DNA of 64,000 nt from Salipiger profundus (GTDB lineage Bacteria; Pseudomonadota; Alphaproteobacteria; Rhodobacterales; Rhodobacteraceae), in the NCBI RefSeq assembly GCF_001969385.1, contig NZ_CP014796.1:4481501-4545500 (forward strand), in the 5' to 3' direction. Shown one piece after another: positions 6,903 through 35,446 of this stretch. A program made the translations under genes and the position numbers. Below the pieces are notes generated by a model. It was not told the DNA's origin. It saw only the letters and a program-made list of their open reading frames with translations, and did no database searches. Numbering within the stretch: the stretch's first letter is position 1; every line of letters begins with the position of its first letter.

Positions 6903-7421
6903 TCAGTGGCGCGCGTGATCGAACCGTTCGGCCATGCGCCCGATCTCGGCCTCGAGACGTTCTGCATAGGCGCGGCGCTCGTCGACGGACATCGCCTCGA
7001 CATAATCCATGAAGACCTGCTGTCCGACCTCCTGACGTCGCCGCGCGGCGGCGCCCTGGTCGGCGAGCGTGGCACGGAATGCCTCGGCGTCGAAAGGATC
7101 GGCCCGCAGCATGCCCAGCGCCGCGCGGTAGCCGTCGAGATAGCCGCCCTCACGCTGCTCCGACCGCCGCTCGGCGCGATCCTCGTCGAAGGCGCCGCGC
7201 AGCCGCCGGCCGAGTTCGTGGCGCTGATCCTCGCTGAATGCGCGGGTATAGGGGAAGACGAAGTCATGCCCCTGCGGAGGCCGCCGGTGCGGATGATCGG
7301 GGCCGAGCAGCAGCATGCCTGCCACAAGCCCCACCACGGCAAGGTTCGCCGCGAGCGAGACAAGCAGCAGTATCCGCATGCCGCGGCTCATCTTGGGTGT
7401 TCCGGAGTGCGTGTCGGCCAT
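6903..7421 (-). CDS. Periplasmic heavy-metal-sensor family protein (CnrX/CpxP-like)
   Basis: A 172-residue protein with one N-terminal transmembrane anchor (MRILLLVSLAANLAVVGLVAG, about residues 15-35), followed by a helical, charged domain (FSEDQRHELGRRLR, RRRQEVGQQVFMDYVEAM). This is typical of the CnrX/Spy/CpxP-type periplasmic sensors. A GPDHPHRRPP segment after the anchor could bind metal. It is the last gene of a three-gene operon (sigma factor, putative anti-sigma factor, sensor), three bases after the previous stop. The order recalls the CnrH/CnrY/CnrX signalling set for cobalt and nickel; that analogy is inference. Confidence 0.7.
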   Translation of the reverse strand: MADTHSGTPKMSRGMRILLLVSLAANLAVVGLVAGMLLLGPDHPHRRPPQGHDFVFPYTRAFSEDQRHELGRRLRGAFDEDRAERRSEQREGGYLDGYRAALGMLRADPFDAEAFRATLADQGAAARRRQEVGQQVFMDYVEAMSVDERRAYAERLEAEIGRMAERFDHARH

Positions 7422-7424
7422 CGT

Positions 7425-7811
7425 TCAAAGTCCCAGCATGGCGTAATCGAAGCCGCTCGCCGGCTCGAGCGCGGTGATCGTGTCGCCCGAGGCGGCATCA
7501 AGAAGATCGGTGAGGCCCGACGGGTCGGCGGCGCCGAACCAGATGCCCGTGGCGCAGGCGGCGACCAGCCCCGCCATCGCCGGCCAGCCGCCGAGCGCCC
7601 CGAGGGTCTCGCGCAGCCAGCCGCCGCGCCGTACCTGTGCCGCAGGGGTTTCGGGCGCAGCGGCGGGACGCGGCGCGGGCATCTCGTCCAGCGCCATGCG
7701 CTCCATCCGCGCGAGCCAGTCCTCCGACGCTGCCGGCGCCTCGGCGCGGCCGGCCTCGAACCACGGGGCGAGTGCCCCTTCCTCCGCCTTGCGCTTGTCA
7801 GTCATCGTCAT
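7425..7811 (-). CDS. Putative membrane-bound anti-sigma factor
   Basis: A 128-residue protein with a soluble N-terminal half (DWLARMERMALDEMP), a single hydrophobic segment (WPAMAGLVAACATGIWFGAA, about residues 75-95) and a short C-terminal periplasmic tail ending FDYAMLGL. It has no motif that I can name. The role is inferred from position: it overlaps the 3' end of the sigma-factor gene by 14 bases and precedes a periplasmic sensor gene, the usual place of an anti-sigma factor. The start at 7811 (MTMTDK) or 7805 (MTDK) is undecided. Confidence 0.55.
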   Translation of the reverse strand: MTMTDKRKAEEGALAPWFEAGRAEAPAASEDWLARMERMALDEMPAPRPAAAPETPAAQVRRGGWLRETLGALGGWPAMAGLVAACATGIWFGAADPSGLTDLLDAASGDTITALEPASGFDYAMLGL

Positions 7812-8397
7812 ATCCCAACTCTGCGCGCCGCGAGGCGAGAAGCCCCTCGAGCGCCTTGCGGCCCCGCGCGGTGAGGCTTTCCACCGCGCGCACGCCGATC
7901 TCCATGATCCCGGCGATCTCGGGGTTCGACAGCCCCTCGAGATGCCGCAGCACCACCGCCTGCCGCTGCCGCTCGGGCAGCGTGTCGAGCGCCGCCTGAA
8001 GCGCCGCGCCGCGGGCGGTCTCCTGCAATTCCTGCTCTGCCGAGCGTGCCGGGTCCAGCGGCTCTGCCACCGCGTCGAGGTCGACGCTGCCGCCGCGCCG
8101 CCGCCGGATGCGGTCGATGCAGAGATTGGACACCACCCGGTAGAGCCATGTCGAGACCTTCGCCTCGCCGGTCCGCCAGCCGGGTGCCGCGCGCCACAGC
8201 CGCAGAAGCGCTTCCTGCGCCACGTCCTCGGCCTCGGCCCGGTCGCCGAGCATCCGCATCGCGAGACCGAAGGCCTTGGGCCCCAGCCGCACGGTCAGCG
8301 CCCGCGCGGCGGCAGGTTCCCCCGCCGCGTAGGCACCGAGCAAGTCCTCGTCACTGCAGTCGCTCATGGCGTCGTATGGCATCCGGTCCATCCACAT
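7798..8397 (-). CDS. ECF-type RNA polymerase sigma factor
   Basis: A sigma-70 family factor of about 199 residues. Region 2 is visible as LGDRAEAEDVAQEALLRLWR and the following VSTWLYRVVSNLCIDRIRRRR. Region 4 is LPERQRQAVVLRHLEGLSNPEIAGIMEIGVRAVESLTARGRKAL. Together they show an extracytoplasmic-function sigma factor that directs transcription of a small regulon. The two downstream genes overlap or nearly touch it, forming sigma, anti-sigma and sensor. No ribosome-binding site clearly favours 8397 over the in-frame ATGs at 8382 and 8367 (MSDCSDEDLL), so the true N terminus may be up to ten residues shorter. Confidence 0.88.
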   Translation of the reverse strand: MWMDRMPYDAMSDCSDEDLLGAYAAGEPAAARALTVRLGPKAFGLAMRMLGDRAEAEDVAQEALLRLWRAAPGWRTGEAKVSTWLYRVVSNLCIDRIRRRRGGSVDLDAVAEPLDPARSAEQELQETARGAALQAALDTLPERQRQAVVLRHLEGLSNPEIAGIMEIGVRAVESLTARGRKALEGLLASRRAELGYDDD

Positions 8398-8476
8398 GCG
8401 CTAGCCCGAAGGCCGGCGCCGCGCAACGGGCGCGGGCGGCGGCACGATGCCGCCGCCCTGCCCCGTCGCGAAGGGC

Positions 8477-9109
8477 TCAGTCGTGGCGCCAGTAGGGCAT
8501 GCGCTCACCGTCCATGCGGTGATGCTCGCCGCGCGGGCCACGCATGTCACCGTGGTGACGGTCGAACCGCTCGCCGCCATGGCGCCCGTCGCCGTCGCGC
8601 ATCCCGCCGGGGCGCTTGTGCATCTGCTGCTGGGCGGCCGCCATCTCTTCCTGCGTCACGGTGCCGTCGTCATCGGCATCGAGCCGGTCGAACATGGCAG
8701 CCGGACCACGGTCGTTGGCCTGCAGTTCCTCGAGGCTGAGCGTGCCGTCCTCGTCGGTGTCGAACCGGTCGAGCATCCGCTGCTGCATCATCGCCTGCCG
8801 ACGCGCCTCGCGCTCGACCTTGCGCGCCTCGTGGAAGGCTGTGAGCTCATCGCCCTCGAGCATGCCGTTGCCGTTGGCATCCGCCTTGTCAAAGGCCGCG
8901 GCCGGGCCGACCGCCGAAAGCTCCTCCTGCGTGATGGCGCCGTCGCCATCCGCGTCGAGCCGCGAGAACATCATCTGCGCCATCTGCGGACGGCCGGTCT
9001 GGCCGTTGCCGGCCTGCGGTCCCTTGGTATCGGGGGCCGCAACCGCGAGACTGGTTGCCCCCATGACGACAAGCGCGGCGCCCGTGAGAAGTCTGGTCAT
9101 GCGTTTCAT
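8477..9109 (-). CDS. Secreted EF-hand calcium-binding protein
   Basis: A 210-residue protein with a signal peptide (MKRMTRLLTGAALVVMGATS, cleavage probably near AVAAP). Four EF-hand loops follow: LDADGDGAITQEEL, ADANGNGMLEGDEL, FDTDEDGTLSLEEL and LDADDDGTVTQEEM, each with the DxDxDG pattern or a close variant. The C terminus is rich in His, Arg, Asp and Gly, which suggests extra metal binding. The ATG at 9109 has CAGGAGA eight bases upstream. It probably acts in the periplasm as a calcium buffer or sensor. It lies 79 bases upstream of the sigma-factor gene with the same orientation, and could be a target of that system; this is inference. Confidence 0.82.
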   Translation of the reverse strand: MKRMTRLLTGAALVVMGATSLAVAAPDTKGPQAGNGQTGRPQMAQMMFSRLDADGDGAITQEELSAVGPAAAFDKADANGNGMLEGDELTAFHEARKVEREARRQAMMQQRMLDRFDTDEDGTLSLEELQANDRGPAAMFDRLDADDDGTVTQEEMAAAQQQMHKRPGGMRDGDGRHGGERFDRHHGDMRGPRGEHHRMDGERMPYWRHD

Positions 9110-24167: not shown

Positions 24168-25658
24168 TCACACCACCGCGAGATGCCCGCTGCCGCGCAG
24201 CGCCTCCATCGGCCAGGGGGCAAGGCGCCCGTCCCTGCGGAAGCTGGCCGAGACGCGACCGGCGTTGGCGGCATGGGTCGAGAGGCTGACCTCGCTGCCG
24301 TCGAAATCGGTGAACCCGAGGGCGAGTGCGCCGCCGTGCCGCTCGAGCCGGTGCCGCAGAACCTGGCAGGCCAGCGCCTCGCCGAGCCGCAGGTCGCGGT
24401 GGTTCTCGGCCTGGAACCAGCCGCCCGCGACCGACCGGGCAAGCGCGATGTCGGCGGCGAGCCGGTCGGCCTCGGCGGCGACGTCGACGCCGCTGCAGCC
24501 CGCGCCCACCATCCGCAACCGACGGTGCGGGCGCGAGTCGAACAGTGCCTTCAGCAGCGTCGAGAGCGCGCCCGCGATGACTGCCTGTGCCGCGCAATCC
24601 GCCCGGTGCGCGGACGCGACCTCCTTCATGGCCGGCAGAAGGAGCACGGGGCCCGTCCGGGTCTCGCGCCCCTGCACGCGGTTGAGCCGGTCGACCCAGT
24701 GCAGCAGCTGCGGCGCCCGCGCCGAGAGTTCCTCGGCGGCGGCCCGGTGCGCAGCGTCATCCGCGCCCTTAGCATCGCCCGAGACCAGCGCGGTCAACCG
24801 CGCGGCAGAGACCCCGGGCCGGCTGAGCCGGTCGGCGCGCCCCTGCATCCGCATCGCGGCGGAAAAGCCCAGCTCGGCGGTCTCGGCCATCAGCGACAGG
24901 ATCGCCTGCGCCGAAAGGGTCTCGGCCGCGCCCGCCGCCCGAAGGCCCGGATCGAGAGGCGCCCCCCGTGCCAGCAGACGCAGCGTGGCGTTGTAGTAGA
25001 TCCGGCAGGGATGGCTTTCCCGCACGCGCGCCACGAGGTCGCGCGGCGTGGCAAGCCCGGGCCGGAACGCGGCCTCCTGCCCCGGCGGGACCAGTGCCGC
25101 GCCCGAGCAGCGCTGCACCCAGTCGAGCCACTGCGACATCGGCGCGTCGGCCGGCGGGGCGGCGCAGGGTTCGGGATCGTTCGCGGCATGCGCGTCGGCA
25201 TCGTGAAAGGCCGAGAGCCTCGGCTGCGGCCCGCCGCTCCGGGCAACCACGCCGCGAAACAGCGTGCGCAGGGTGAGCTGCCCATCGTGGTTGCGGCGCA
25301 GCCCCCGGCGGTGCTCGGCCTCGGCGCTGCCCCTTGTGGCGCTGAACGACCCGGCGGGCAAAGGCAGTGCCGGCGCATCGAACCAGCTGAGGCTACGCAG
25401 TTCGCACAACAACTCATGCAGGGTGAACCGGGTGCCGGCCTCGATCCAGATCTCGCAATGCGGATCGCCCATCACCGGGAACGGCAGGTCGCGCACCAGC
25501 GACAGCGCGTAGAGTTCGGCAAGCTCGGCGGCCAGTTCCTCGGGCCCCATGCGCGGCGCGGGCGGCAGCATTAGCTCTACGCTCCGGGGAGTCTCGGCGG
25601 TGAGCCCACCATCGATCACGCGAAAGCGCGGGGCATGTGTATCACTCGGTACGGGCAT
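24168..25658 (-). CDS. Vanadium-haloperoxidase/PAP2-like protein, catalytically degenerate
   Basis: A 496-residue protein without a signal peptide. Several segments match vanadium-dependent haloperoxidases of the PAP2 superfamily: AELYALSLVRDLPF, YYNATLRLLARGAPLDPG, AVIAGALSTLLKALF, RLAADIALARSVAGGWF and FTDFDGSEVSL. By-eye alignment suggests loss of catalytic groups. The vanadate/phosphate-binding lysine before the RP motif is replaced, the (P)xGH loop reads RADCAAQ, and the catalytic histidine and following aspartate of RxxxxxHxxxD read Trp and Glu in ARSVAGGWFQAE. It is probably a non-enzymatic paralogue of the intact protein at 28048. The ATG at 25658 has CAGGACAGGGA upstream. It is divergent from the subtilase gene. 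Confidence 0.6.
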   Translation of the reverse strand: MPVPSDTHAPRFRVIDGGLTAETPRSVELMLPPAPRMGPEELAAELAELYALSLVRDLPFPVMGDPHCEIWIEAGTRFTLHELLCELRSLSWFDAPALPLPAGSFSATRGSAEAEHRRGLRRNHDGQLTLRTLFRGVVARSGGPQPRLSAFHDADAHAANDPEPCAAPPADAPMSQWLDWVQRCSGAALVPPGQEAAFRPGLATPRDLVARVRESHPCRIYYNATLRLLARGAPLDPGLRAAGAAETLSAQAILSLMAETAELGFSAAMRMQGRADRLSRPGVSAARLTALVSGDAKGADDAAHRAAAEELSARAPQLLHWVDRLNRVQGRETRTGPVLLLPAMKEVASAHRADCAAQAVIAGALSTLLKALFDSRPHRRLRMVGAGCSGVDVAAEADRLAADIALARSVAGGWFQAENHRDLRLGEALACQVLRHRLERHGGALALGFTDFDGSEVSLSTHAANAGRVSASFRRDGRLAPWPMEALRGSGHLAVV

Positions 25659-25745
25659 CGCTGCGTTCCCTGTCCTGACAATCGTCTCGCGCCGCTTCAC
25701 CGGGCGCTTATGTTGACCAAAGGTAAACGCAACCTGCGCATGCCC

Positions 25746-25848
25746 CGTGATCGCAGCGTGAACGCGGCGCAAAATCTGCGTGACCGCCACAAGTTTTCAC
25801 TGATCTGCACAGGGCGAACGCGGCCCGTTTCCGTGAACACCGCGCAAA
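25746..25848. promoter_or_regulatory. Phased CGTGAA-type repeats in the divergent promoter region
   Basis: On the plus strand, hexamers CGTGAT (25746), CGTGAA (25757), CGCAAA (25768) and CGTGAC (25779) are spaced exactly 11 bases apart. A second pair CGTGAA (25832) and CGCAAA (25843) has the same spacing. SARP-type regulators typically bind direct repeats with 11-base periodicity, and a SARP-like gene closes this island. The same CGTGAA pair with 11-base spacing lies upstream of that gene. Operator function is inference. The rest of the 283-base intergenic region holds no gene. Confidence 0.5.
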
Positions 25849-25941
25849 TCCTGGCTCTCTCGGGCCGCAGTCGCTTGACCGTTGCGTCAACCACGGCTTT
25901 GCTGGCCGCATAGTTTCAAGACCTTTTGCAAGGAGCCCGCC

Positions 25942-27963
25942 ATGGCGCTGATCTGGACCGACGCCGAAGCGTCCGATTTCCGCGACCCCTACATCGATTT
26001 CTCGTGGGAGTTGCGGCAGCGCCGCGAGCCCCCGGTCGGGAATGCCGTATTCGAGCCGATCTTCGTGCGACTGAAGACGCCGGGCCGCACGGCCCGGCAA
26101 ACGCTGCTCGGGCTGGTAAAGGACGAGCGCGCCCCGTTGCTCATGGAGCCGTTCGAGCAGGCGGTGCTGGCGCGGCGCTGTGCCGCCACGGATCCCGACG
26201 CTGGGCTTCCCGACGAATACGCCCTCTACCGCGCCCTCGGCACGCCCGACGCGGAGCATGCCGCGCTCTTCGACGTTCTCGACACCGGCACGCCCGTCGC
26301 GCTCGATCCCTCGGGCATCCCCGACACCGATGCCCTGCCCGGCCCGGCGGCCCTGGAGGCAGGCACACCCGCGCAACCCATCGTCGCCATCGTCGACGAC
26401 GGCATCGGCTTTCTCAACGCGCGGTTCCGCAAGGGCACGCACAGCCGCTTCCACGCGGTCTGGCTTCAGGCCCTCGAACGCCGCGAAGCCGGAAGCCGCC
26501 GCGCCTGCCTTGGCGAGGTGCTGACCCGCGAGGAGATCGACACGCTCTTGCAGGCCGGGCCCGCGCTCAACGAAGCCGCGGTCTACGCCGATCAGAATGC
26601 CCGGCTGGCACGCCACGACGCGCGGCGCTCGACCGATCACGGCACCAGCCACGGCACCCATATGCTCGACCTCGCCGCCGGAGCCGATCCCGACGACGCC
26701 CGCGACCCTGCCCGCGACTGGCCGCTGCTCGCGGTCCAGCTGCCGCCGCAGGCGGTGGCCGACACCTCGGGGACCAGGTTCGAGAGCTACGTCGTGCAGG
26801 CGATGCGCTGGATCCTGCGGCAGGCCGAGGCCATAGATCCGCGCGCGCCGGTCATCGTCAACCTGTCGCTGGGGATGCTCGCCGGACCCAAGGACGGCTC
26901 GCGCTTCGCCAGCTACCAGCTCGCCCGCGAGGCGGCGGAATGGGAGCGCGTGAAGAAACAGCCGGTGCGGGTGGTCTGGTCCTTCGGCAACGACTACCGC
27001 AAGCGGCTGGTGGCCGGGCTCGACTTCGCCATCGTGCGCGACGAAGACGATGACACGCAGGCGGTCGACTGGAGGATCCAGCCGGGCGACCAGACCGAGA
27101 GCTTTCTCGAGCTGCGCGCCGCCCCGGGCCAAAGCCTCGACGGGCTGGCACTGTCGCTCGAGACGCCGGCGGGGCTTGCCTCGGGGTTCGTTCAGGTGGC
27201 GCCGGGCGAGACGCGCAGCCTCATGCGGGGCGACAAGGCAGTGGCGCGGATCTACCACGTGCCGGAGCGAAGGCTCGATTCCGAAACCGTGCAGCGCGCG
27301 CACTACCTTCTGGCCATCGGCCCGACCGACTCCCGCCACCGCGAACCGCTGGCACCGGCGGGCCGCTGGCGCCTGCACTGCCGCTACGAGACGCGCGCGC
27401 GGCTGAACCTCGTGCTGCAGATCCAGCGCGACGACAGCCTGAGCGGTTACCGGGCGCGGGCCCGGCAAAGCTACTTCGACGACCCCGGCGCGCACGACTG
27501 GAGCGCCGGTTATCTCGACTACTCCGCCCTTTCGTCGCCGGGCGCCATCCGCCACGCCGGAAGCCACAACGCGCTGGCCTCGTCGACCGCGCGGCAGGTG
27601 TTTCTGGTCGGCGCCGCGCGATGCAGCCGTGAAGACGACGACCTGCCCCCCGCCGACTACACCGGCGAAGGCGCACACTGGTCGGTCGAGGGCCCGACCG
27701 TCGCCACCGTCGCCGATCGCAGCCGCATTCGGGCCGGGGTGCTGGCCAGCGGCACACTGAGCGGCAGCAGCCGCGCGCTCAACGGTACGAGCGCCGCCGC
27801 GGGGCGCCTGACCCGGGCACTCGCGCTCTCTGCCACGACGCTCAAGGCCAATGCCACCAGCCCGCATGTGGCGGATCTGGCCAGCCCGGCTCTTGCGCTG
27901 CATGAGGTGCCGCGCGACCGGCGGTCCCGGCTGGGCGACTACGTCGTGGAGCCATCGACCTGA
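25942..27963 (+). CDS. Subtilisin-like serine peptidase (S8 family), apparently intracellular
   Basis: A 673-residue S8-family protease with an intact triad: Asp152 in PIVAIVDDGIGF, His237 in TSHGTHMLDLAAG, and Ser617 in LNGTSAAAGRLTRA. The oxyanion asparagine is probably in VVWSFGND. The catalytic domain is interrupted by a long insert between the Asn and Ser motifs (about residues 350-600) rich in beta-type segments. No signal peptide, transmembrane segment or type I secretion repeat is visible, so it is either cytoplasmic or exported by an unknown route. The N-terminal 140 residues are not a recognisable I9 propeptide. The ATG has AAGGAG upstream. It is divergent from the degenerate haloperoxidase-like gene and convergent with the intact one. 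Confidence 0.82.
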   Translation: MALIWTDAEASDFRDPYIDFSWELRQRREPPVGNAVFEPIFVRLKTPGRTARQTLLGLVKDERAPLLMEPFEQAVLARRCAATDPDAGLPDEYALYRALGTPDAEHAALFDVLDTGTPVALDPSGIPDTDALPGPAALEAGTPAQPIVAIVDDGIGFLNARFRKGTHSRFHAVWLQALERREAGSRRACLGEVLTREEIDTLLQAGPALNEAAVYADQNARLARHDARRSTDHGTSHGTHMLDLAAGADPDDARDPARDWPLLAVQLPPQAVADTSGTRFESYVVQAMRWILRQAEAIDPRAPVIVNLSLGMLAGPKDGSRFASYQLAREAAEWERVKKQPVRVVWSFGNDYRKRLVAGLDFAIVRDEDDDTQAVDWRIQPGDQTESFLELRAAPGQSLDGLALSLETPAGLASGFVQVAPGETRSLMRGDKAVARIYHVPERRLDSETVQRAHYLLAIGPTDSRHREPLAPAGRWRLHCRYETRARLNLVLQIQRDDSLSGYRARARQSYFDDPGAHDWSAGYLDYSALSSPGAIRHAGSHNALASSTARQVFLVGAARCSREDDDLPPADYTGEGAHWSVEGPTVATVADRSRIRAGVLASGTLSGSSRALNGTSAAAGRLTRALALSATTLKANATSPHVADLASPALALHEVPRDRRSRLGDYVVEPST

Positions 27964-28009
27964 CGGGAGGCGCAAAATGGGCCCGGAGCCACGCGGCCCC
28001 GGGTCCAGG

Positions 28010-28037
28010 ATCCCTTTCCCTGCATCCCTTTCCCTGC
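28010..28037. repeat. Tandem 14-bp direct repeat between convergent genes
   Basis: Two perfect adjacent copies of ATCCCTTTCCCTGC, between the stops of the subtilase and the PAP2/haloperoxidase genes. It is probably a simple slippage duplication. Confidence 0.6.
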
Positions 28038-28047
28038 GCGGATCGCC

Positions 28048-29145
28048 TCAGGCCTCGGTCTTCGCCTCGGCCCACATCGCGCGCAGCCACGCCGGCACCG
28101 CCTCGGGGTCGATGTCGATCTCGGTCTCGGTGATCGCGCCCGCCGGGTCGATCTCGGCATCGAGGAGCGACAGGTTGAAGTCACCGGCGTAGTCGGCGCC
28201 GTGGTAGCTGCGCGCGGTGGTCTTGTCGCGGCCCTCGAGCAGGTTGACCAGCGCCTCGGCAAGCGTCACCCCGAGCACCGCCCCCGCCATGCTGTCGGTC
28301 GGGAAATGCACGCCCGCCACGGTGCGGTTGATGGCGATGCGCTCGGCATGCCGGTAGAGCGGGGTCTGCGCCGCCAGCAGCTCGCGCGGCGCGAAGGGCG
28401 CAGGCTCAGCCCAGTCGGTGTCCTGGAACAGGAATGAGAGCAGCGTGGCACCGGCAAAGCTTTCGGTGGCGTGCCCGCTCGGCCAGGCGCCGTGACCGGG
28501 GGTCTGGATGATCGGCTGCACCTCGTAGGCAAAGGTGATCGGGCGCGGCACGTCGAAGCCCAGCTTGATCGGCATCTCGACATGGGTGCAGAGCCGGAAG
28601 ATCGCCTGAGTCAGCGCCAGCGACCATTTCGTCGCCCCCGAGGACATGTAGCTGACCCCGGCAAAGAACGACTGGATGTTGCTCGTCTCGACCCGGATCT
28701 CGGTCAGCCGGTCGCCGCGCAGGTCCGCCGCCGCGCGCAGGTAGGGCAGCTGGTGGTCGCGCAGCACCGACATCTTCGGGCGCTCGAGCGTCACCAGCGG
28801 CGTGCCCTGCAAGGTCAGCGCTCCGGTGACGTTCGGCGCATCGCTGCGATCGAAGCTGACGCCGAACAGGCCCTGGATCGCCTGGTCCATCACCGCCCGG
28901 CGCGGCACCGTGTCGAGCCGCTTCACCGCCAGCCAGGCCTCGCGCCCCTCGACCCGGTTCACGTCGCGCGAGGGCTTGCCGTCCCAGTAACCGAGCGTGC
29001 CGTCGCGCGCCCGGCCAAGCGCAGAGCTCAGCGCGCCGGATCCGCCGCCGCCCTCGTGGCCCTCGTGACCTTCGTGCCCCTCATGGCCTTCGTGTCCCTC
29101 GTGACCTTCATGGCCCTCGTGGCCTTCATGTCCGTAAATCGGCAT
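28048..29145 (-). CDS. PAP2 / vanadium-dependent haloperoxidase-family enzyme with GHE-repeat N terminus
   Basis: A 365-residue protein with all three PAP2 signature motifs: KLGFDVPRP (KxxxxxxRP), WPSGHA, and INRTVAGVHFPTDS (RxxxxxHxxxD). It could be a vanadium haloperoxidase or an acid phosphatase, and sequence alone does not decide. There is no signal peptide. After MPIY come nine tandem Gly-His-Glu triplets and a GGGGSG linker, a likely metal-binding tail. The ATG at 29145 (GGGGAGA upstream) is preferred; an in-frame TTG lies at 29151. It lies between the subtilase and the SARP-like regulator, and mirrors the degenerate relative at 24168. Confidence 0.78.
   Translation of the reverse strand: MPIYGHEGHEGHEGHEGHEGHEGHEGHEGHEGGGGSGALSSALGRARDGTLGYWDGKPSRDVNRVEGREAWLAVKRLDTVPRRAVMDQAIQGLFGVSFDRSDAPNVTGALTLQGTPLVTLERPKMSVLRDHQLPYLRAAADLRGDRLTEIRVETSNIQSFFAGVSYMSSGATKWSLALTQAIFRLCTHVEMPIKLGFDVPRPITFAYEVQPIIQTPGHGAWPSGHATESFAGATLLSFLFQDTDWAEPAPFAPRELLAAQTPLYRHAERIAINRTVAGVHFPTDSMAGAVLGVTLAEALVNLLEGRDKTTARSYHGADYAGDFNLSLLDAEIDPAGAITETEIDIDPEAVPAWLRAMWAEAKTEA
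29053..29133 (-). repeat. Nine 9-bp units coding (Gly-His-Glu)9
   Basis: In-frame tandem units of 9 bases with silent variation at codon third positions (GGC/GGT/GGG/GGA, CAC/CAT, GAG/GAA). The variation suggests that selection keeps the peptide repeat, rather than a very recent DNA expansion. Confidence 0.9.
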
Positions 29146-29257
29146 CTGCAATCTCCCCGGGCGGACAGCCCCAAAATAGTCAAAGCGACGAATTTCACGT
29201 CAAAGTGGCGGAATACTGCCCAACCGACGCAACGCGCGAAAGGAAATTCCATCGCGA

Positions 29258-29274
29258 TTCACGCAAGTTTCACG
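29258..29274 (+). promoter_or_regulatory. Paired TTCACG (CGTGAA) repeat upstream of the SARP-like gene
   Basis: TTCACG at 29258-29263 and 29269-29274, 11 bases apart, lie about 70-84 bases before the ATG of the regulator. In the direction of transcription they read as do the copies upstream of the minus-strand gene at 24168. A further TTTCACG lies at 29193. This is a candidate autoregulatory or regulon operator. Confidence 0.5.
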
Positions 29275-29341
29275 ATCGTTGCCGCCTTCGGGGCACAATG
29301 CTAGGCTCCGGCCTGAAGCATTCCCCGAGACGGACACCTGC

Positions 29342-30949
29342 ATGAGCGAAACCGCGTTGCCGATCCGCATATCGGTTCTTGGCCCGCTGCACGCCGAGGG
29401 CGGCAACGGCAGCGTGCTCACGCCCAAGGGGGCGAAGAACCAGGCGCTGCTCGCCCTGCTCGCGCTTGCGCCCGAGATGACGCGCCCGCGCCGCTGGCTC
29501 GAGGACAAGCTCTGGAGCCAGTTCGGCCCGGAGCAGGCCAGCGCCAACCTGAGGCAGGCGCTGAGCAAGCTGCGCGGCGCGCTGGGCCCATTTGCCGACA
29601 TCCTTCAGGCCGACCGCGCCTCGGTCGCGCTGGACCGGGCCCGCGTGCGCGTCGATCTGATCGAGGACGGCCCGCCGCTCGATGCGCGCGTCGAGCTTCT
29701 GGAGGGGCTGGACGCCCGCGACCCGGAGTTCGAGGAATGGCTGCGGATGGAGCGCGCCGACCTGCAGGCGCGGATCGCCCGCGCCGCCCCGCGCGAGGCC
29801 AAGGGCATTCTCATCAGCTGCAGCACCGCCTCGCACGGCGCCACGACCGACGAAAGCGACCTGATGGCCGAGATCCTCGCCAACCAGATCGGCGAGAACA
29901 TCGGCGAGCAGATCCGCGCGTGGCGGCAGGCCAATGACCCGGACTTTCCGGCCGAGCTGCCGCCCGCCGACCTGTCGGTGACCTGCGACATCCTCGCATC
30001 CGAGGGCGGGCACACGGTCTTCGTGAAGGGCATACACCTGCCGAGCGGGCGGATCCTTTATTCCAAGCTGCAGAAGGTGCGCCATCTCGAGGACGTGCTG
30101 ACCTCGGAACAGCAGGTCGCCAAGCTGGTGTTCGAGGCCGCGGACTGCATCATCGGCAAGCTGCCGCAGGTGCTCGACAGTGCCCGGCCCGAAAGCCGCG
30201 CGACGGCGCTGTCGCGGCTCAGCATGTACCGGATGTTCAGCTTCGAGCGCGACGCCCTGCGCGAGGCCTACACGCTGCTGCGGCAGGCGCACGAGCTGGA
30301 CGGCAACGGCATCTACCTCGCCTGGAGCAGCATGGTGCGGATGATCCAGTTGATGGAGCTGCTCGAGGACGACCGCGACGCGCTGCGCGAAGAGGCCATC
30401 GCGCTCAACTATCGCGCCATCGAGGACTCCGAGGACAATCCGCTGGTGCACGCGCTCATCAGCAAGGTGCGCGGCACCGCGCAGCGCGATGCCTACGGCG
30501 CCTTCGACCTTGCCGAGACGGCGGTGGACCGCAACCCCGCCTCGGCCTTCGCGTGGAAATCGCTTGCCGAGGCGCACATGATGAAGGGGGATCTTGCCGC
30601 AGCCTTCGATGCCTCCGCACGGGGCCGGGCGATCGCCCGCAACTCGCCCTTCCGGCAGTGGTGGGACATGGGGCACTGCATCATCGCCATCGCCTGCAAC
30701 CGCGCACAGGAGGCGATCGAGGCCGGCGAGGCCGCCGCGCGCTCGGCCCCACTGTCACGTCCGGCGCACCGGCACCTGCTCGCGCTCTACGCGCTCGACG
30801 GCCAGCTCGACAAGGCGCAGGCGACGGCGGTGAAGCTCGCCAAGATCGAGCCGGGATTCACCCTCGACCAGATCGTCAACGACGAGAGTTACCCGGTGCG
30901 CACGCTGAGACGGAACGGCCTTCTCGAACCGATCCGCGCCCTGCTTTAG
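29342..30949 (+). CDS. SARP-like transcriptional regulator with TolB-like and TPR regions
   Basis: A 535-residue protein. Residues about 8-95 form an OmpR/SARP-type winged helix (IRISVLGPLHAEG, KNQALLALLALAPEMTRPR, SANLRQALSKLRGAL). A middle region (about 150-260) begins GILISCSTASHGATTDESDLMAEILANQI and resembles the TolB-like domain found between winged helices and TPRs in CadC/adenylate-cyclase-like proteins. The C-terminal half has TPR-type helical repeats (ALREAYTLLRQAHELDGNG, AFDLAETAVDRNPASAFAWKSLAEAHM). No transmembrane segment or ATPase motif. It closes the haloperoxidase/subtilase island and is its probable regulator, given the phased repeats; this is inference. Confidence 0.8.
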   Translation: MSETALPIRISVLGPLHAEGGNGSVLTPKGAKNQALLALLALAPEMTRPRRWLEDKLWSQFGPEQASANLRQALSKLRGALGPFADILQADRASVALDRARVRVDLIEDGPPLDARVELLEGLDARDPEFEEWLRMERADLQARIARAAPREAKGILISCSTASHGATTDESDLMAEILANQIGENIGEQIRAWRQANDPDFPAELPPADLSVTCDILASEGGHTVFVKGIHLPSGRILYSKLQKVRHLEDVLTSEQQVAKLVFEAADCIIGKLPQVLDSARPESRATALSRLSMYRMFSFERDALREAYTLLRQAHELDGNGIYLAWSSMVRMIQLMELLEDDRDALREEAIALNYRAIEDSEDNPLVHALISKVRGTAQRDAYGAFDLAETAVDRNPASAFAWKSLAEAHMMKGDLAAAFDASARGRAIARNSPFRQWWDMGHCIIAIACNRAQEAIEAGEAAARSAPLSRPAHRHLLALYALDGQLDKAQATAVKLAKIEPGFTLDQIVNDESYPVRTLRRNGLLEPIRALL

Positions 30950-30981: not shown

Positions 30982-31482
30982 TCAGGAGGCGCGCTTGCGC
31001 TCGCTCTTGTCCGTATCGAGCGCACCCACGGTCAGAACCGGCGAGGCGTCGATGTCGCGCGCGTCAAGCATCGTGGCAACGCGTTCGAGCGATGACAGAA
31101 GCTGTGCCTGCTCCCAGTCCTCGAGCTGTTCGAACTCGCGCACGAAGCGCTGCTGAAGCGCGTCCGGTGCGCGGCTGAGCGTCTCGAGGCCGCGCGGCGT
31201 GAGTGTCACGTTGATCTGCCGCCGGTCCCGCTCGGAGGGGACGCGACTGACCATGCTGTCCTTGACGAGCTTGTCGACCAGCCCCGTGATCGTGGCCTGG
31301 CTCACGCCCATCTGGGTCGCGAGCGCCTTGGGGGTCGCGCTGCCGCCTTTCATCTGTACGATCTGCATCACGCGCAGCTTTGCCGGCGTGACGCCCGCGG
31401 CACTGGCGAGGTCGCGTTCATAGAGCTCGGTGGCCCGCAATATGCGGCGCAATGCGATCAAGCTTTCATCCGTTCGATCCAT
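30982..31482 (-). CDS. ectR: MarR-family regulator of ectoine genes (EctR)
   Basis: A 166-residue MarR protein. The winged helix contains PKALATQMGVSQATITGLVDKLVKDSMVSRVPSERDRRQINVTLT, with the DRR wing motif. It lies divergent to ectA with about 265 bases between the starts, the standard position of EctR, which represses ectABC at low osmolarity in methylotrophs and others. The role is inferred from family and position. TTCAAGT and its inverse ACTTGAA in the intergenic region are possible half-sites. Confidence 0.85.
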   Translation of the reverse strand: MDRTDESLIALRRILRATELYERDLASAAGVTPAKLRVMQIVQMKGGSATPKALATQMGVSQATITGLVDKLVKDSMVSRVPSERDRRQINVTLTPRGLETLSRAPDALQQRFVREFEQLEDWEQAQLLSSLERVATMLDARDIDASPVLTVGALDTDKSERKRAS

Positions 31483-31688
31483 CGGACCCCTGCCCTTTCA
31501 TAGCTGGCGAATGGCCCTTGGTTGCATGAATCGGTCAAATCCTTCAAGTATCGAAGCATCGACCGGGTTTGTTTCGTGTCACTAAGGATATCCCCGGACA
31601 GAAATTTTTCAAGCCCTTCGAATTTTTCCAGTAATATCAGTATAAAGCGGCCAATGGTGACGTTTTTCCGCCGAAAATACTTTATCAC

Positions 31689-31717
31689 TTGAAACTTTTC
31701 CGCGGCATCCCTAGTTT
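31689..31717 (+). promoter_or_regulatory. ectA promoter with possible EctR site
   Basis: TTGAAA (31689-31694), a 17-base spacer and TAGTTT (31712-31717), giving a transcript start near 31724, 25 bases before the ectA ATG. ACTTGAA (31687-31693) overlaps the -35 element and is the inverse of TTCAAGT at 31543, itself inside CTTCAAGTATCGAAG (31542-31556). The remaining A/T-rich intergenic bases hold no gene; the short minus-strand reading frame there is not convincing. Confidence 0.55.
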
Positions 31718-31748
31718 ATCTTCCAAAGCGAAAGAGAGGGACCACCCG

Positions 31749-32288
31749 ATGCCGAAAGACAGCTTCACGCCCCGCAAACAGGATGCACTCGTGCTCCGTA
31801 AGCCTGAGTCGACCGATGGCGCCGCCATCTGGGAGCTCGTGCGCGCGTGCAAGCCGCTCGACGAAAACTCCATGTACTGCAACATCGTGCAGGCCGAGCA
31901 CTTCCGCGACACCTGTGTCGTGGCCGAGCTCGATGGCGATGTCGTGGGCTGGATTTCGGGTCACATGATCCCCGGACAGGAGGCCTTCTTCGTGTGGCAG
32001 GTCGCCGTGAGCTCCAAGGCGCGCGGTCTTGGTCTCGGTCGCAAGATGCTGACGCATCTGGTGAACCGCGACGAGTGCGCCGACGCCAAGGAACTCAAGA
32101 CGACGATCACCGAGGACAACGATGCTTCCTGGGGTCTCTTCCGCAGCTTCGCCCGCAATATCGGCGGCGAGCTGACCGATGAACCCCATTACGTCAAGGA
32201 CATTCACTTCGACGGGCAGCACGACACCGAGCACATGGTGACGATCTCGCTGCCCCGGGAAGAGGCCGAAGTGCTGCGCGCCGCTTGA
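31749..32288 (+). CDS. ectA: L-2,4-diaminobutyrate acetyltransferase (EctA)
   Basis: A 179-residue GNAT acetyltransferase making N-gamma-acetyl-2,4-diaminobutyrate, the second step of ectoine synthesis. Family features: LRKPESTDGAAIWELVRACKPLDENSMYCN and the acetyl-CoA loop ARGLGLGRKML. The ATG at 31749 has GAGAGGGA upstream; the longer in-frame ATG at 31689 lies inside the promoter. It is the first gene of ectABC-ask_ect, with ectB following after 53 bases. Expression is expected at high salinity. Confidence 0.95.
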   Translation: MPKDSFTPRKQDALVLRKPESTDGAAIWELVRACKPLDENSMYCNIVQAEHFRDTCVVAELDGDVVGWISGHMIPGQEAFFVWQVAVSSKARGLGLGRKMLTHLVNRDECADAKELKTTITEDNDASWGLFRSFARNIGGELTDEPHYVKDIHFDGQHDTEHMVTISLPREEAEVLRAA

Positions 32289-32341
32289 GGTGCGCCCGCC
32301 CGGCCCTACTTCCTGACGAACATCAGACGAAAGGACGTCTC

Positions 32342-33616
32342 ATGAATCCCGATATCTACACGCGCCGCGAAAGCGAAGCGCGCTCCTACTGCCGTAGCTT
32401 TCCGACCAGCTTCGTGAAGGCCAGCGGCTCGATCCTCACGGACGAGAAGGGCACCGACTACATCGACTTTCTCGCCGGTTGCTCGTCGCTGAACTACGGT
32501 CACAACGACCCCGACATGAAGGCGGCGCTCATCGAGCACATCTCGAACGATGGCGTCACCCATGGTCTCGACATGCACACCGAGCAGAAAGAGGCCTTCC
32601 TGACCGCGTTCGAGGACATCATCCTCAAGCCGCGCGGCATGGACCACAAGGTGATGATGGTCGGCCCGACCGGCACCAACGCCGTCGAAGCCGCCATGAA
32701 GCTGGCGCGCAAGACGACCGGCCGCCATAACATCGTGGCCTTCACCAACGGCTTCCACGGCATGACCATGGGCGCACTCGCCGCGACCGGCAATGCCGGC
32801 AAGCGGAACGGTGGCGCGATGCCGCTACAAGGTGTCACCCACCTTCCCTACGACGGCGCGATGGGCCCGGACGTGAACACGCTCGACCAGATCGAGTTCA
32901 TGCTCGAGAACCCGTCCTCGGGCCTCGACGCTCCGGCCGCGTTCCTCGTCGAGCCGGTCCAGGGCGAAGGCGGCCTGAACGCCGCATCCGCCGAATGGCT
33001 GCGTGGCATCGCGGCGCTCGCCAAGAAGAACGGCGCGCTGCTGATCCTCGACGACATCCAGGCAGGGATCGGCCGCACCGGCACCTTCTTCTCCTTCGAG
33101 GAGATGGGCATCGAGCCCGACATGGTGCCGATGGCCAAGTCGCTCTCGGGCATGGGCCTGCCGTTCGCGGCGCTGCTGCTCAAGCCGGAGCTCGACGTCT
33201 GGAAGCCGGCCGAGCACAACGGCACCTTCCGCGGCAACACCCATGCCTTCGTCACCGCCCGCGTGGCGCTCGAGAAGTTCTGGAAGGACGACTCGTTCCA
33301 GACCGAGCTCAAGTCGAAGGCCCGCACCATCGAAATGGGCCTGACCTCGATCGCCGACATGGTCGACGGTGCCCGTCTCAAGGGCCGTGGCCTGATGCGC
33401 GGTGTCGACGTCGGCTCGGGCGACCTTGCCGAGAAGATCTGTGCCGAAGCGTTCAAGCGTGGCCTCATCATCGAGACCTCGGGCGCGCACGACGAAGTGG
33501 TCAAGGTGCTCGCACCGCTGACCACCACGGAAGAGCAGTTCGAGAAGGGCTTCGAGATCCTTCGCGACGCCACCCGTGCCGCCCTGACCGAGAACAACCA
33601 GATTGCAGCGGAGTAA
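32342..33616 (+). CDS. ectB: Diaminobutyrate-2-oxoglutarate aminotransferase (EctB)
   Basis: A 424-residue class III PLP-dependent aminotransferase converting aspartate semialdehyde and glutamate to 2,4-diaminobutyrate, the first step of ectoine synthesis. Visible features are GPTGTNAVEAAMKLARKTTGR, FHGMTMGAL, ILDDIQAGIGRTG and the PLP lysine in MAKSLSGMGLP. The ATG at 32342 follows GAAAGGACG. It lies within the ect operon, six bases before ectC. Confidence 0.96.
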   Translation: MNPDIYTRRESEARSYCRSFPTSFVKASGSILTDEKGTDYIDFLAGCSSLNYGHNDPDMKAALIEHISNDGVTHGLDMHTEQKEAFLTAFEDIILKPRGMDHKVMMVGPTGTNAVEAAMKLARKTTGRHNIVAFTNGFHGMTMGALAATGNAGKRNGGAMPLQGVTHLPYDGAMGPDVNTLDQIEFMLENPSSGLDAPAAFLVEPVQGEGGLNAASAEWLRGIAALAKKNGALLILDDIQAGIGRTGTFFSFEEMGIEPDMVPMAKSLSGMGLPFAALLLKPELDVWKPAEHNGTFRGNTHAFVTARVALEKFWKDDSFQTELKSKARTIEMGLTSIADMVDGARLKGRGLMRGVDVGSGDLAEKICAEAFKRGLIIETSGAHDEVVKVLAPLTTTEEQFEKGFEILRDATRAALTENNQIAAE

Positions 33617-33622
33617 ATCATC

Positions 33623-34015
33623 ATGATCGTTCGCGACTTCAACGAACTCAAGAAAACCGACAAGCACGTGGCCGACGCGCAGTGGACCTCCACCCGGATG
33701 CTGCTGGCCGACGATGGCATGGGCTTCTCGTTCCACATCACCATCCTCGAGGCGGGCTCGGAGCACACGTTCCACTACAAGCACCACTTCGAGAGCGTCT
33801 ACTGCATGGCCGGCAAGGGCTCGATCACCGACCTTGCCACCGGCGAGACGCACGAGATCAAGCCGGGCGTGATGTATGCGCTGAACCTGCACGACAAGCA
33901 CACGCTGCGTGCCGAGGAAGACCTGCACATGGCCTGCTGCTTCAACCCGCCGGTCACCGGCAAGGAGGTGCACCGCGAAGACGGCTCCTACGCCCCGGCC
34001 GAGGAGGTGGCGTAA
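33623..34015 (+). CDS. ectC: L-ectoine synthase (EctC)
   Basis: A 130-residue cupin enzyme cyclising N-gamma-acetyl-diaminobutyrate to ectoine. The pattern MIVRDFNELKKTD, HYKHHFESVYCMAGKGSITD and LNLHDKHTLRAEEDL is characteristic, with the metal-binding His/Glu residues in ESVYC and DKH. It sits between ectB and ask_ect with 6 and 3 intervening bases. No ectD hydroxylase follows, so ectoine rather than hydroxyectoine is the product of this locus. Confidence 0.96.
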   Translation: MIVRDFNELKKTDKHVADAQWTSTRMLLADDGMGFSFHITILEAGSEHTFHYKHHFESVYCMAGKGSITDLATGETHEIKPGVMYALNLHDKHTLRAEEDLHMACCFNPPVTGKEVHREDGSYAPAEEVA

Positions 34016-34018
34016 GCC

Positions 34019-35446
34019 ATGGCCCAGCACACGGTTGAAAAGATCGGCGGGACGTCGATGTCCCGCGTCAACGAACTGCGCGACGAGCTGCTGATCGGTG
34101 ACCGCAAGGGCGATGATCTCTACGGCCGCATCTTCGTGGTCTCCGCCTTCGGCGGCATCACCAACCTGCTGCTCGAGCACAAGAAGACCGGCGAGCCTGG
34201 CGTCTACGGCCAGTTCGCCGCGTCCGACAACAGCCACGGGTGGCACGATGCGCTGAACCGCGTCGGCGATGCGATGATCGAAGCGCACAAGGAGGTGCTC
34301 GACCACGACGGCGACGTGCAGCTGGCGACGGATTTCGTCCGCACCCGCATCGACGGGGCCCGCAACTGCCTGATCGATCTGGCGCGCGTGTGCTCCTACG
34401 GCCACTTCCGCCTGTCCGAGCACATGCTGCAGACCCGTGAACTGCTCTCCGGTCTCGGCGAGGCGCATTCGGCCTTCGTCACCGTGCTGATGCTTCAGCG
34501 CGCCGGCGTCGATGCCCGCCTCGTGGACCTCAGCGGCTGGCGCGGCGAAGGCGACGTGACCCTCGAGGAACGCATCCTCGGTGCCATGGAAGGCGTCGAC
34601 CCGATGCGCGAGATGCCGATCGTCACCGGCTACGCCCAGTGCAAGGAAGGCCTGATGCGCGAGTTCGACCGCGGCTACTCCGAGGTCACCTTCTCGCATC
34701 TCGCTGCCCTTACCGGCGCGCGCGAAGCCATCATCCACAAGGAGTTCCACCTGTCCTCCGCCGACCCGAACCTCGTCGGTGCAGAGGCGGTGCGCAAGCT
34801 CGGCCGTACGAACTACGACGTGGCGGACCAGCTCTCCAACATGGGGATGGAGGCGATCCACCCGAAGGCCGCCAAGACGCTGCGCCAGGCCGACGTGCCG
34901 CTGCGCGTGACCAACGCCTTCGAGCCCGAGGACCCGGGCACGCTGATCGACGACAAGCCTGCCGAAAACCCGGCGGTCGAGATCGTCACCGGCCTCGACA
35001 TCATCGCGCTGGAAGTGTTCGAACAGGACATGGTCGGCGTGAAGGGCTATGACGCCACGATCCTCGACGTGCTGACGCGTCACGACGTGCGCATCGTGTC
35101 CAAGGTGTCCAACGCCAACACGATCACGCACTACGTGGATGCCTCGCTCAGCACGATGCGCCGCGTGGAGAAGGATCTCGAGAAGCACTACCCCTCGGCG
35201 CAGATCACCTCGCGCACCCTGGCCATGGCCTCGGTCATCGGTCGCGACCTGAACGGACTGTCGGTCCTTCAGCGCGGGCTCGTGGCCATCGCCGATGGCG
35301 GCCTCGAGGCGATCGGTGCCACCCAGGGGCCGCGCAACGTGGACGTGCAGTTCATCCTCGAGCGCGACATCCTCAAGCCGGTCATCAAGGCGCTGCACAA
35401 GACCTTCATCGAGGACAGCAGCCCGGCCATTCAGAAAGCCGCCTGA
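34019..35446 (+). CDS. ask_ect: Ectoine-specific aspartate kinase (Ask_Ect)
   Basis: A 475-residue aspartokinase that feeds aspartate into ectoine synthesis and, in characterised cases, is less feedback-sensitive than the housekeeping kinase. The N-terminal HTVEKIGGTSMSR is the kinase motif, AFGGITN and LTGAREAIIHKEFH lie in the catalytic domain, and ACT-type regions follow (DMVGVKGYDATILDVLTRHDVRI). It starts three bases after ectC and ends the operon before a strong terminator. Confidence 0.93.
   Translation: MAQHTVEKIGGTSMSRVNELRDELLIGDRKGDDLYGRIFVVSAFGGITNLLLEHKKTGEPGVYGQFAASDNSHGWHDALNRVGDAMIEAHKEVLDHDGDVQLATDFVRTRIDGARNCLIDLARVCSYGHFRLSEHMLQTRELLSGLGEAHSAFVTVLMLQRAGVDARLVDLSGWRGEGDVTLEERILGAMEGVDPMREMPIVTGYAQCKEGLMREFDRGYSEVTFSHLAALTGAREAIIHKEFHLSSADPNLVGAEAVRKLGRTNYDVADQLSNMGMEAIHPKAAKTLRQADVPLRVTNAFEPEDPGTLIDDKPAENPAVEIVTGLDIIALEVFEQDMVGVKGYDATILDVLTRHDVRIVSKVSNANTITHYVDASLSTMRRVEKDLEKHYPSAQITSRTLAMASVIGRDLNGLSVLQRGLVAIADGGLEAIGATQGPRNVDVQFILERDILKPVIKALHKTFIEDSSPAIQKAA

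Follow-up and report, generated by a model that had tools for sequence, protein, structure and literature searches.

A conserved unit of regulator, protease and PAP2 enzyme carries a perfect peptide repeat whose word differs between lineages in Salipiger profundus and other bacteria

We describe here four neighbouring genes of Salipiger profundus (assembly GCF_001969385.1) located in a window of 64,000 nucleotides, the window being the whole stretch of DNA that was analysed (G000:C1:4481501-4545500, on contig NZ_CP014796.1, in a 5.4-Mb genome). From position 24168 to position 30949 of the window, on strands that alternate (-, +, -, +), they encode P1, a relative of vanadium bromoperoxidases, an S8 protease, an enzyme of the PAP2 family and a SARP-like regulator. 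We show that the regulator, the protease and the PAP2 enzyme constitute one conserved unit. Moreover, the PAP2 protein begins with an array of perfect tandem peptide units, and the exact repetition of these units is under strong selection while the repeated word turns over. We propose a regulated protease-PAP2 module in which the array would be where the partner protease docks or cuts, a reading to which we give a probability of about 0.35.

One conserved unit of regulator, protease and PAP2 enzyme

The conservation survey was read locus by locus in 61 genomes, our own included. The four genes are found together in the window, in seven of the 19 other genomes of the genus (G001, G006, G007, G008, G013, G017, G018) and in one genome of another genus (G021), and the same flanks are kept within the genus. 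P1 lies about 30 kb away in G019, and S8 and most of PAP2 are lost in G004, whose locus (L082) looks like a module in decay: a PAP2 fragment with two Gly-His-Glu (GHE) units persists, S8 is gone, and P1 and the SARP gene are retained. The combination of regulator, PAP2 and S8 without P1 occurs in other genera.

The PAP2 profile (E <=1e-15) had matches in 128 of the 394 family genomes. Beyond this family sample, matches were obtained in 13 of 385 genomes drawn from the class, including 4 family members, and in 26 of 398 from the phylum, including 11. Some of the weak matches are relatives that have neither regulator nor array. Named hosts are Roseivivax, Mameliella, Antarctobacter, Sulfitobacter, Rhizobium, Bradyrhizobium, Microvirga, Kiloniella and Hydrogenophaga. 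The loci include the best 80 of 573 confirmed matches (L101-L180), as well as 20 outside the family and 20 weaker ones inside it that were hand-picked among the matches listed (L188-L227). To keep the set non-redundant, L101, L102, L104, L112 and L177 were dropped from the tally, and L071 and L082 also from the operator, word and codon-neighbour analyses; no two PAP2 cores in the word analysis are identical.

In this set, 140 of 145 PAP2 loci have the regulator within 6 kb, and 132 of those 140 also have a protease within 7 kb. The five loci without a regulator in view are L205, L206 and L122, which lack an array (in L122 the contig start cuts PAP2), and L168 and L216, in which an array is present and PAP2 stands at the contig start, so that the regulator was possibly cut off. 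As a separate observation, two family PAP2 genes lie 6 kb apart on opposite strands at G232:C42:32237 and 38220, possibly two modules back to back.

Altogether, the grouping and alternating orientation that the initial annotation had reported are confirmed and extend to other species and genera. The four families are not scattered, as that annotation had envisaged as a possible outcome: they co-occur in the genomes listed above, and the three-gene core stands at most loci. That four unrelated genes merely lie side by side retains next to no probability. Their alternating orientation and the survival of P1 alone in several related genomes would agree with it, but the promoter regions carry similar repeats, and chance neighbourhood is ruled out by a gene order conserved across genera.

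We call the module new because none of the family libraries used and no paper found describes it; in the open-licence PubMed Central (PMC) literature, searched by title or abstract start, we found no description of the module or of its arrays. The design itself, a perfect repeat within the protein with a word that differs between lineages, is without a known example that we found.

The repeat array and its word

The window PAP2 protein starts with MPIY, directly followed by nine perfect GHE units. The run had first been described as a tail; it is an N-terminal array. The array is predicted to be disordered, residues 8-33 of the PAP2 model having a per-residue confidence (pLDDT) below 50. A repeat motif shared by all four genes had also been claimed. 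As a peptide it was not recovered, no peptide repeat being found in S8, SARP or P1; at the DNA level, the two divergent intergenic regions do share the motif TCACG. Elsewhere in the genome, three GHE units in a row were not found.

A perfect N-terminal tandem array (at least 12 residues, with a word of two to six residues) is present in 134 of the 140 regulator-associated PAP2 proteins, with a median length of 26 residues (range 12-57) and periods of 2 to 6. It is missing from L082 (broken PAP2), L174 (split frame), L171 (9 residues only), L223 (S8 in pieces), L218 and L219; the L219 protein has imperfect LHKS-like units. Arrays of this type appear to be a property of PAP2 within these neighbourhoods: in 41 stretches, perfect tandem repeats spanning 12 residues or more in four or more units were found in 19 of 21 PAP2 genes and in none of the 529 other called genes. 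No array is present in eight weaker PAP2 relatives whose stretch shows no recognised regulator (L205, L206, L228-L233), several of which start with what by eye looks like a signal peptide; among these controls, L228-L233 are weak matches chosen late, and L206, L231, L232 and L233 represent one genus.

We found that the word is held exact at the protein level and not at the DNA level. When 2601 codons were compared in 101 arrays (61 different words), 1323 of them were synonymous variants of the codon most frequent at their place, against 22 residue differences, whereas about 24% of random single changes are expected to be synonymous. The arrays being found by their perfection, and at most one mismatch per unit being let in when extending them, it is the size of this effect and not its exact value that is the result. 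In addition, adjacent units in 132 arrays have the same codon at 951 of 3215 places (0.296), against 0.443 predicted from the codon usage of the same locus. Only 40 pairs of adjacent units are identical in DNA, as compared to 110 expected (lowest of 500 simulations, 80) and to 71 after shuffling codons within arrays (lowest 46). The synonymous excess and the dissimilarity of adjacent units in DNA thus indicate a word kept exact while its DNA is scrambled, in a manner that may be likened to what engineers do for repetitive genes.

These data bear on the simplest explanation of the array, which is that it is a mere soluble spacer produced by slippage, for which any low-complexity sequence would suffice. 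The composition is indeed constrained, each of the 133 words containing G, A, N, S, T or Q, and L219 tolerates imperfect units. However, a spacer would accept replacements, which are few beside the synonymous differences, and slippage would leave adjacent units alike in DNA, which is the reverse of what was counted. We therefore regard a plain spacer as quite improbable.

The identity of the word is far less constant than its repetition. We counted 78 different words in 133 arrays, among them basic, acidic, aliphatic and aromatic kinds. The same word is shared by 49 of 81 pairs whose PAP2 cores are at least 60% identical, and by 19 of 629 pairs at 40-60%. Words one residue apart make up 259 of 3499 pairs at 30-40% identity, 80 of 405 at 40-50% and 33 of 224 at 50-60%. 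Close pairs can differ across the whole array: all copies read SGGL in one protein and SGGI in another at 93% PAP2 identity (L166, L180), both differ from SGGA at 82-85% (L175), and SGV faces TGL at 89% (L188, L169). Such pairs suggest that the word evolves stepwise, by replacement of one residue in all copies together. The homologues at L166, L180, L172, L175 and L203, which are 78-93% identical in PAP2 and carry the words SGGL, SGGI, SGA and SGGA, are well suited to studying word change.

The protease slot and possible roles of the array

The S8 protein matches Peptidase_S8 in Pfam (2e-9). Its D-H-S triad and oxyanion asparagine (D152, H237, S617 and N350) are invariant in 60 aligned sequences and, judged by eye, it has no signal peptide, which agrees with the initial annotation. 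The hosts of S8-containing modules are not known to form spores. The sequence alone returned nothing meaningful from the PDB. Its AlphaFold (AF2) model is confident (pLDDT 93.5): the N-terminal domain is folded, and a weak linker around residues 121-140 separates it from the catalytic domain. The top PDB matches of this model in Foldseek are the clostridial CspB, CspA and CspC (CspB 4i0w: E 4.8e-21, TM score 0.47 by query). Model topology and Foldseek agree on a likeness to the Csp subfamily, which has a retained prodomain and an inserted jellyroll domain; the prodomain-like domain of S8 may be retained as well. In CspB, as reported in PMC3567191, the prodomain remains bound, a jellyroll insertion is present and activity is required for cleavage of the partner SleC.

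Within 7 kb of PAP2, the 140 loci hold an S8 protease of type a (102) or type b (19), a papain-like protease (6) or an A4 peptidase (5), and eight have no recognised protease (L082, L119 at a contig end, L197, L198, L221, L224-L226), these counts, like those of peroxidases below, varying with the flank length of each stretch. The papain-like class was assigned from Pfam matches that narrowly missed the cut-off in two proteins (0.0016, 0.0021; two others gave none), motifs recognised by eye and likeness among seven proteins; the A4 class was far above the cut-off in the two proteins scanned, and the other three were found with a profile of those two. Because S8 proteases of two types, papain-like and A4 families occupy the same slot, it is proteolysis rather than one protein that is conserved, in support of the regulated proteolysis proposed by the initial annotation.

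The kind of word goes with the kind of protease, with phylogeny left in this comparison. All six papain-like proteases at loci with a regulator accompany four-residue words, all five A4 peptidases accompany x-[G/S]-N, and 15 of 17 S8 proteases of type b accompany [N/S][R/K]. In a Mantel test with fuller alignments (3116 of 4465 pairs), word distance is related to the S8 inserted domain given all other S8 and SARP parts (partial r 0.122, 0/300 permutations) and to the first S8 catalytic part (partial r 0.11, p 0.01), the PAP2 core giving 0.00 (0.11 in closer pairs). A run with shorter S8 alignments and other covariates (1315 pairs) gave r 0.14 (p 0.002) for the S8 middle part and 0.23 for the PAP2 core.

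We propose the following sequence of events. All module proteins would act inside the cell. The SARP would bind TCACG direct repeats and drive both divergent gene pairs. The protease, restrained by its own prodomain as in clostridial CspB, would be freed by a signal; once free, it could trim or bind the array and thereby switch, release or remove the PAP2 enzyme. Many identical sites may allow a graded or cooperative response and, according to this proposal, every unit must therefore stay identical, each lineage with its own word. P1 would be a dead bromoperoxidase retained as a binding or structural subunit in the Salipiger branch and its relatives. We favour this reading because of the protease found at 132 of 140 loci, the association of word and protease, the selection on the array, the CspB-like fold and the operator-like repeats. 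For its central step, that the array is what the protease reads, we infer about one chance in three.

Several results weigh against this proposal. Arrays persist at six loci without a recognised protease (L197, L198, L221, L224-L226), two of them near contig ends. In S8, residues N307, S309, G311, A314 and G315 near the active site are almost invariant despite widely varying words, which argues against word-specific cleavage unless small residues are what is recognised. The effects in the Mantel test are small, tests of this kind tend to give inflated values, and phylogeny was only partly removed. Finally, the winged-helix part of SARP gave a negative, unexplained correlation (r -0.105, p 0.04; closer pairs -0.127, p 0.003).

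A tentative extension is that the array is a private peptide code, an arbitrary repeated word that would be read only by its own partner protease, so that modules of different lineages stay apart. The copies would be held identical, their codons scrambled against slippage, and the whole word replaced in concert. We consider it possible and incline towards doubt.

Alternatively, the array might be a self-association tag, its identical disordered units forming clusters, filaments or condensates, with a private word preventing mixing and the protease dismantling the assembly. The perfect periodicity combined with great freedom in sequence, the abundance of G, S, A, N, Q, H and T in the words, the limited array length and the disorder in the model would all suit such a tag. 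Basic, acidic, aliphatic and aromatic words should not, however, share one assembly mechanism, and word similarity tracks the protease; we hold self-association to be somewhat unlikely.

The protease could also cut the array into short peptides sensed by the TPR domain of the regulator, in the way of tandem pheromone precursors and RRNPP receptors. A TPR regulator, a multi-copy peptide and a protease are indeed adjacent, the words are lineage-specific, and TPRs are retained where the regulator has a cyclase domain. Against a peptide signal, word distance did not track the SARP TPR part in what is a weak test (partial r -0.027, p 0.52 for all pairs; 0.07, p 0.08 for closer pairs), and by eye there is no signal peptide. 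This alternative seems to us rather unlikely, and we continue to prefer docking or cleavage by the partner protease.

Enzyme, regulator, promoters and known systems

The PAP2 protein has the active-site residues K194, R201, P202, PSGH 222-225, N273-R274, H280 and D284, which we take to match the class A acid phosphatase motif K-x6-RP, PSGH, SR-x5-H-x3-D. They are invariant or nearly so in 19 diverse and 61 closer sequences; in these alignments the S of SR reads N, and in some of the diverse relatives G224 is N or A (PSNH, PSAH). In Foldseek, the nearest folds are class A acid phosphatases (7f17); the haloperoxidase matches 4usz and 3w36 are weaker, and a vanadium iodoperoxidase stands further down. 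The protein had been annotated as an intact PAP2/haloperoxidase: its active-site residues are kept, but its modelled fold lies closer to that of class A acid phosphatases than to that of haloperoxidases, and it may act as a phosphatase.

For P1, Pfam and NCBIfam gave nothing useful. An alignment of its family (35 proteins) searched against the PDB retrieved the Corallina vanadium bromoperoxidase 1qhb (E 6.3e-40; best eight matches 6e-40 to 1e-37), with homology over about 300 residues. Close relatives with names are mostly from Salipiger, and several are labelled bromoperoxidase by NCBI. At the vanadate-ligand positions, whose roles we assign from general knowledge, P1 has Q, R, A-A-Q, R, W in place of the K, R, (S/A)-G-H, R, H of intact enzymes: K is changed to Q, S-G-H to A-A-Q and the axial H to W, both R being retained. 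With most ligands changed, P1 is by its sequence a degenerate vanadium bromoperoxidase, in line with the initial annotation, and presumably a pseudoenzyme. The full ligand set is found in 6 of 77 rows of the family (L078, L079, L080, L097, L129, L137), to which the K is confined; the 77 rows combine 42 frames from loci (some duplicates, two fragments) and the 35 proteins. BLAST showed no similarity between P1 and PAP2. In six related genomes (G003, G005, G011, G014, G015, G016), P1 is kept, with similar flanks, at a site from which S8, PAP2 and an intact regulator have disappeared, and since it persists there without them, it seems to have some function of its own; these genomes carry other modules elsewhere. 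Two further observations concern this family. At L098, a gene at 6949-9012 (-) beside the module represents a second, separate decay of a bromoperoxidase (the K, H485 and R545 positions read A, P and G). In the genus relatives L078, L079 and L080, full-ligand genes stand in stretches where no module gene was found.

Peroxidases recur near the module. Among the 140 loci, the stretches examined show a gene of the bromoperoxidase family in 28, an animal-type haem peroxidase in 10 and neither family in 102. Full-ligand bromoperoxidases adjoin the module at three loci (L097, L129, L137), and haem peroxidase genes do so at L066, L068, L093, L123, L133, L150, L152, L154, L155 and L220. In the 394 genomes of the family, haem peroxidase and PAP2 form 10 pairs within 8 kb against 0.19 expected, counted among the matches listed (150 PAP2 places in 123 of 128 genomes, 98 haem peroxidase places in 83 of 85) after second fragments of one gene had been removed. 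The link to peroxide or halogenation chemistry proposed for the island has some support from these neighbours. Taken further, PAP2 would be a vanadium haloperoxidase working beside peroxidase partners and producing reactive halogen against invaders or for signalling. The pairings speak for such a module, but P1 of the window has lost most ligands, PAP2 may be a phosphatase, most loci show neither peroxidase family and none of the four window proteins has a PADLOC match (E up to 1). We judge a halogenation or oxidant module to be very improbable. Given these 0 matches and the flanks kept within the genus, the defence role considered in the initial annotation is not supported either.

The regulator agrees with its description as SARP-like with TPRs: it matches AfsR in the PDB (8hvr, E 7e-4) and TPR proteins, its Pfam matches being weak. 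A BTAD domain is found in the regulators of relatives (L198, L217), and a class III cyclase domain with TPRs at L192-L195, L197, L221 and L224-L226.

Both divergent intergenic regions of the window hold TCACG repeats 11 or 22 bp apart, which presumably resemble Streptomyces operators. This motif was chosen by visual inspection of the window before testing; the P1/S8 region has four sites against a shuffle mean of 0.78 (p 0.006), and the PAP2/SARP region three (p 0.0045). Across the loci, the strict form TTCACG-N5-TTCACG occurs in 10 of 59 PAP2/SARP regions, always towards SARP, for 0.01 expected, and a relaxed motif has period 11 in 11 regions, whereas each of the periods 8-10 and 12-14 is seen in at most one. 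P1-type/S8 regions contain the strict form in 4 of 21 (0.005 expected; relaxed 8), towards P1, without the window, where the second copy reads ATCACG. TCACG at period 11 was counted, without shuffles, in 10 of these 21 regions including the window. As 49 of 59 PAP2/SARP regions are without the strict form, the operator, if real, must vary.

The features of the locus are collected in Table 1. To the left of P1 lie genes for a YkuD protein and cytochrome c; to the right of SARP, positions 30982-35446 include a MarR-type gene (Pfam) and are what we take, from translations, to be an ectoine operon.

Table 1. Features of the four-gene locus (positions in the window; the P1 start is the ATG at 25658, picked to fit the length of database relatives)
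Feature	Position	Strand	Evidence
P1, degenerate vanadium bromoperoxidase, pseudoenzyme by sequence	24168..25658	-	Profile match to 1qhb, ligand residues changed
P1/S8 divergent promoter region (putative); TCACG at 25750, 25761, 25783 (- strand; 11 and 22 bp spacing) and 25836	25659..25941		Motif count vs shuffles
S8 subtilase, CspB-like: prodomain-like N-terminal domain (~1-118), catalytic domain with inserted domain (~357-540)	25942..27963	+	Pfam, AF2 model, Foldseek, triad
Two exact 14-bp copies in tandem, S8/PAP2 intergenic stretch	28010..28037		Repeat search
PAP2 enzyme (class A acid phosphatase / vanadium haloperoxidase superfamily) with N-terminal repeat array	28048..29145	-	Pfam PAP2 1.7e-14, motifs, Foldseek 7f17
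Repeat array, nine perfect Gly-His-Glu units	29053..29133	-	Translation; no adjacent units identical in DNA
PAP2/SARP divergent promoter region (putative); TTCACG-N5-TTCACG at 29258-29274 (+), extra TCACG at 29195	29146..29341		Motif count vs shuffles
SARP-like regulator: winged helix, middle domain, TPR repeats	29342..30949	+	AfsR 8hvr E 7e-4, TPR matches, weak Pfam

The arrays join traits that seem to exclude one another, a near-absolute identity of copies within a protein and the replacement of the word between homologues. They thereby offer a clean natural experiment, in which a repeated word under strong selection nonetheless changes as a whole, and in which the natural scrambling of the DNA of a repeat can be measured. 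Possibly, the module represents a proteolytic switch or address system of a new kind. Because 128 of the 394 family genomes have PAP2 relatives and the module is present in named strains, recognition, switching and regulation are directly testable.

Each component has known counterparts from which it departs. The S8 model shares with Csp subtilases (CspB 4i0w) a subtilisin fold, a predicted N-terminal prodomain and an inserted domain, but S8 is only about 15% identical and sits beside a PAP2 enzyme and a TPR regulator. PAP2 has the fold of class A acid phosphatases (7f17) and their active-site spacing (K-x6-RP, PSGH, R-x5-H-x3-D); it differs by its array, absent from the eight weaker relatives without a nearby regulator, and by a start unlike a signal peptide. 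The P1 family is homologous to vanadium bromoperoxidases (Corallina 1qhb), whereas P1 is without the lysine, the S/A-G-H triplet and the axial histidine. Like SARP/AfsR regulators, the window regulator has a winged helix and TPRs, with BTAD in the L198 and L217 relatives and direct repeats of 11-bp period, while one branch of the module has a class III cyclase domain on the N-terminal side instead. Finally, PAP2 holds tandem peptide copies in one protein, as do tandem-repeat proteins in general, whose copies diverge fast under relaxed selection according to Persi et al. 2016 (PMC5120217); in PAP2, by contrast, the copies stay identical and it is the whole array that changes between homologues.

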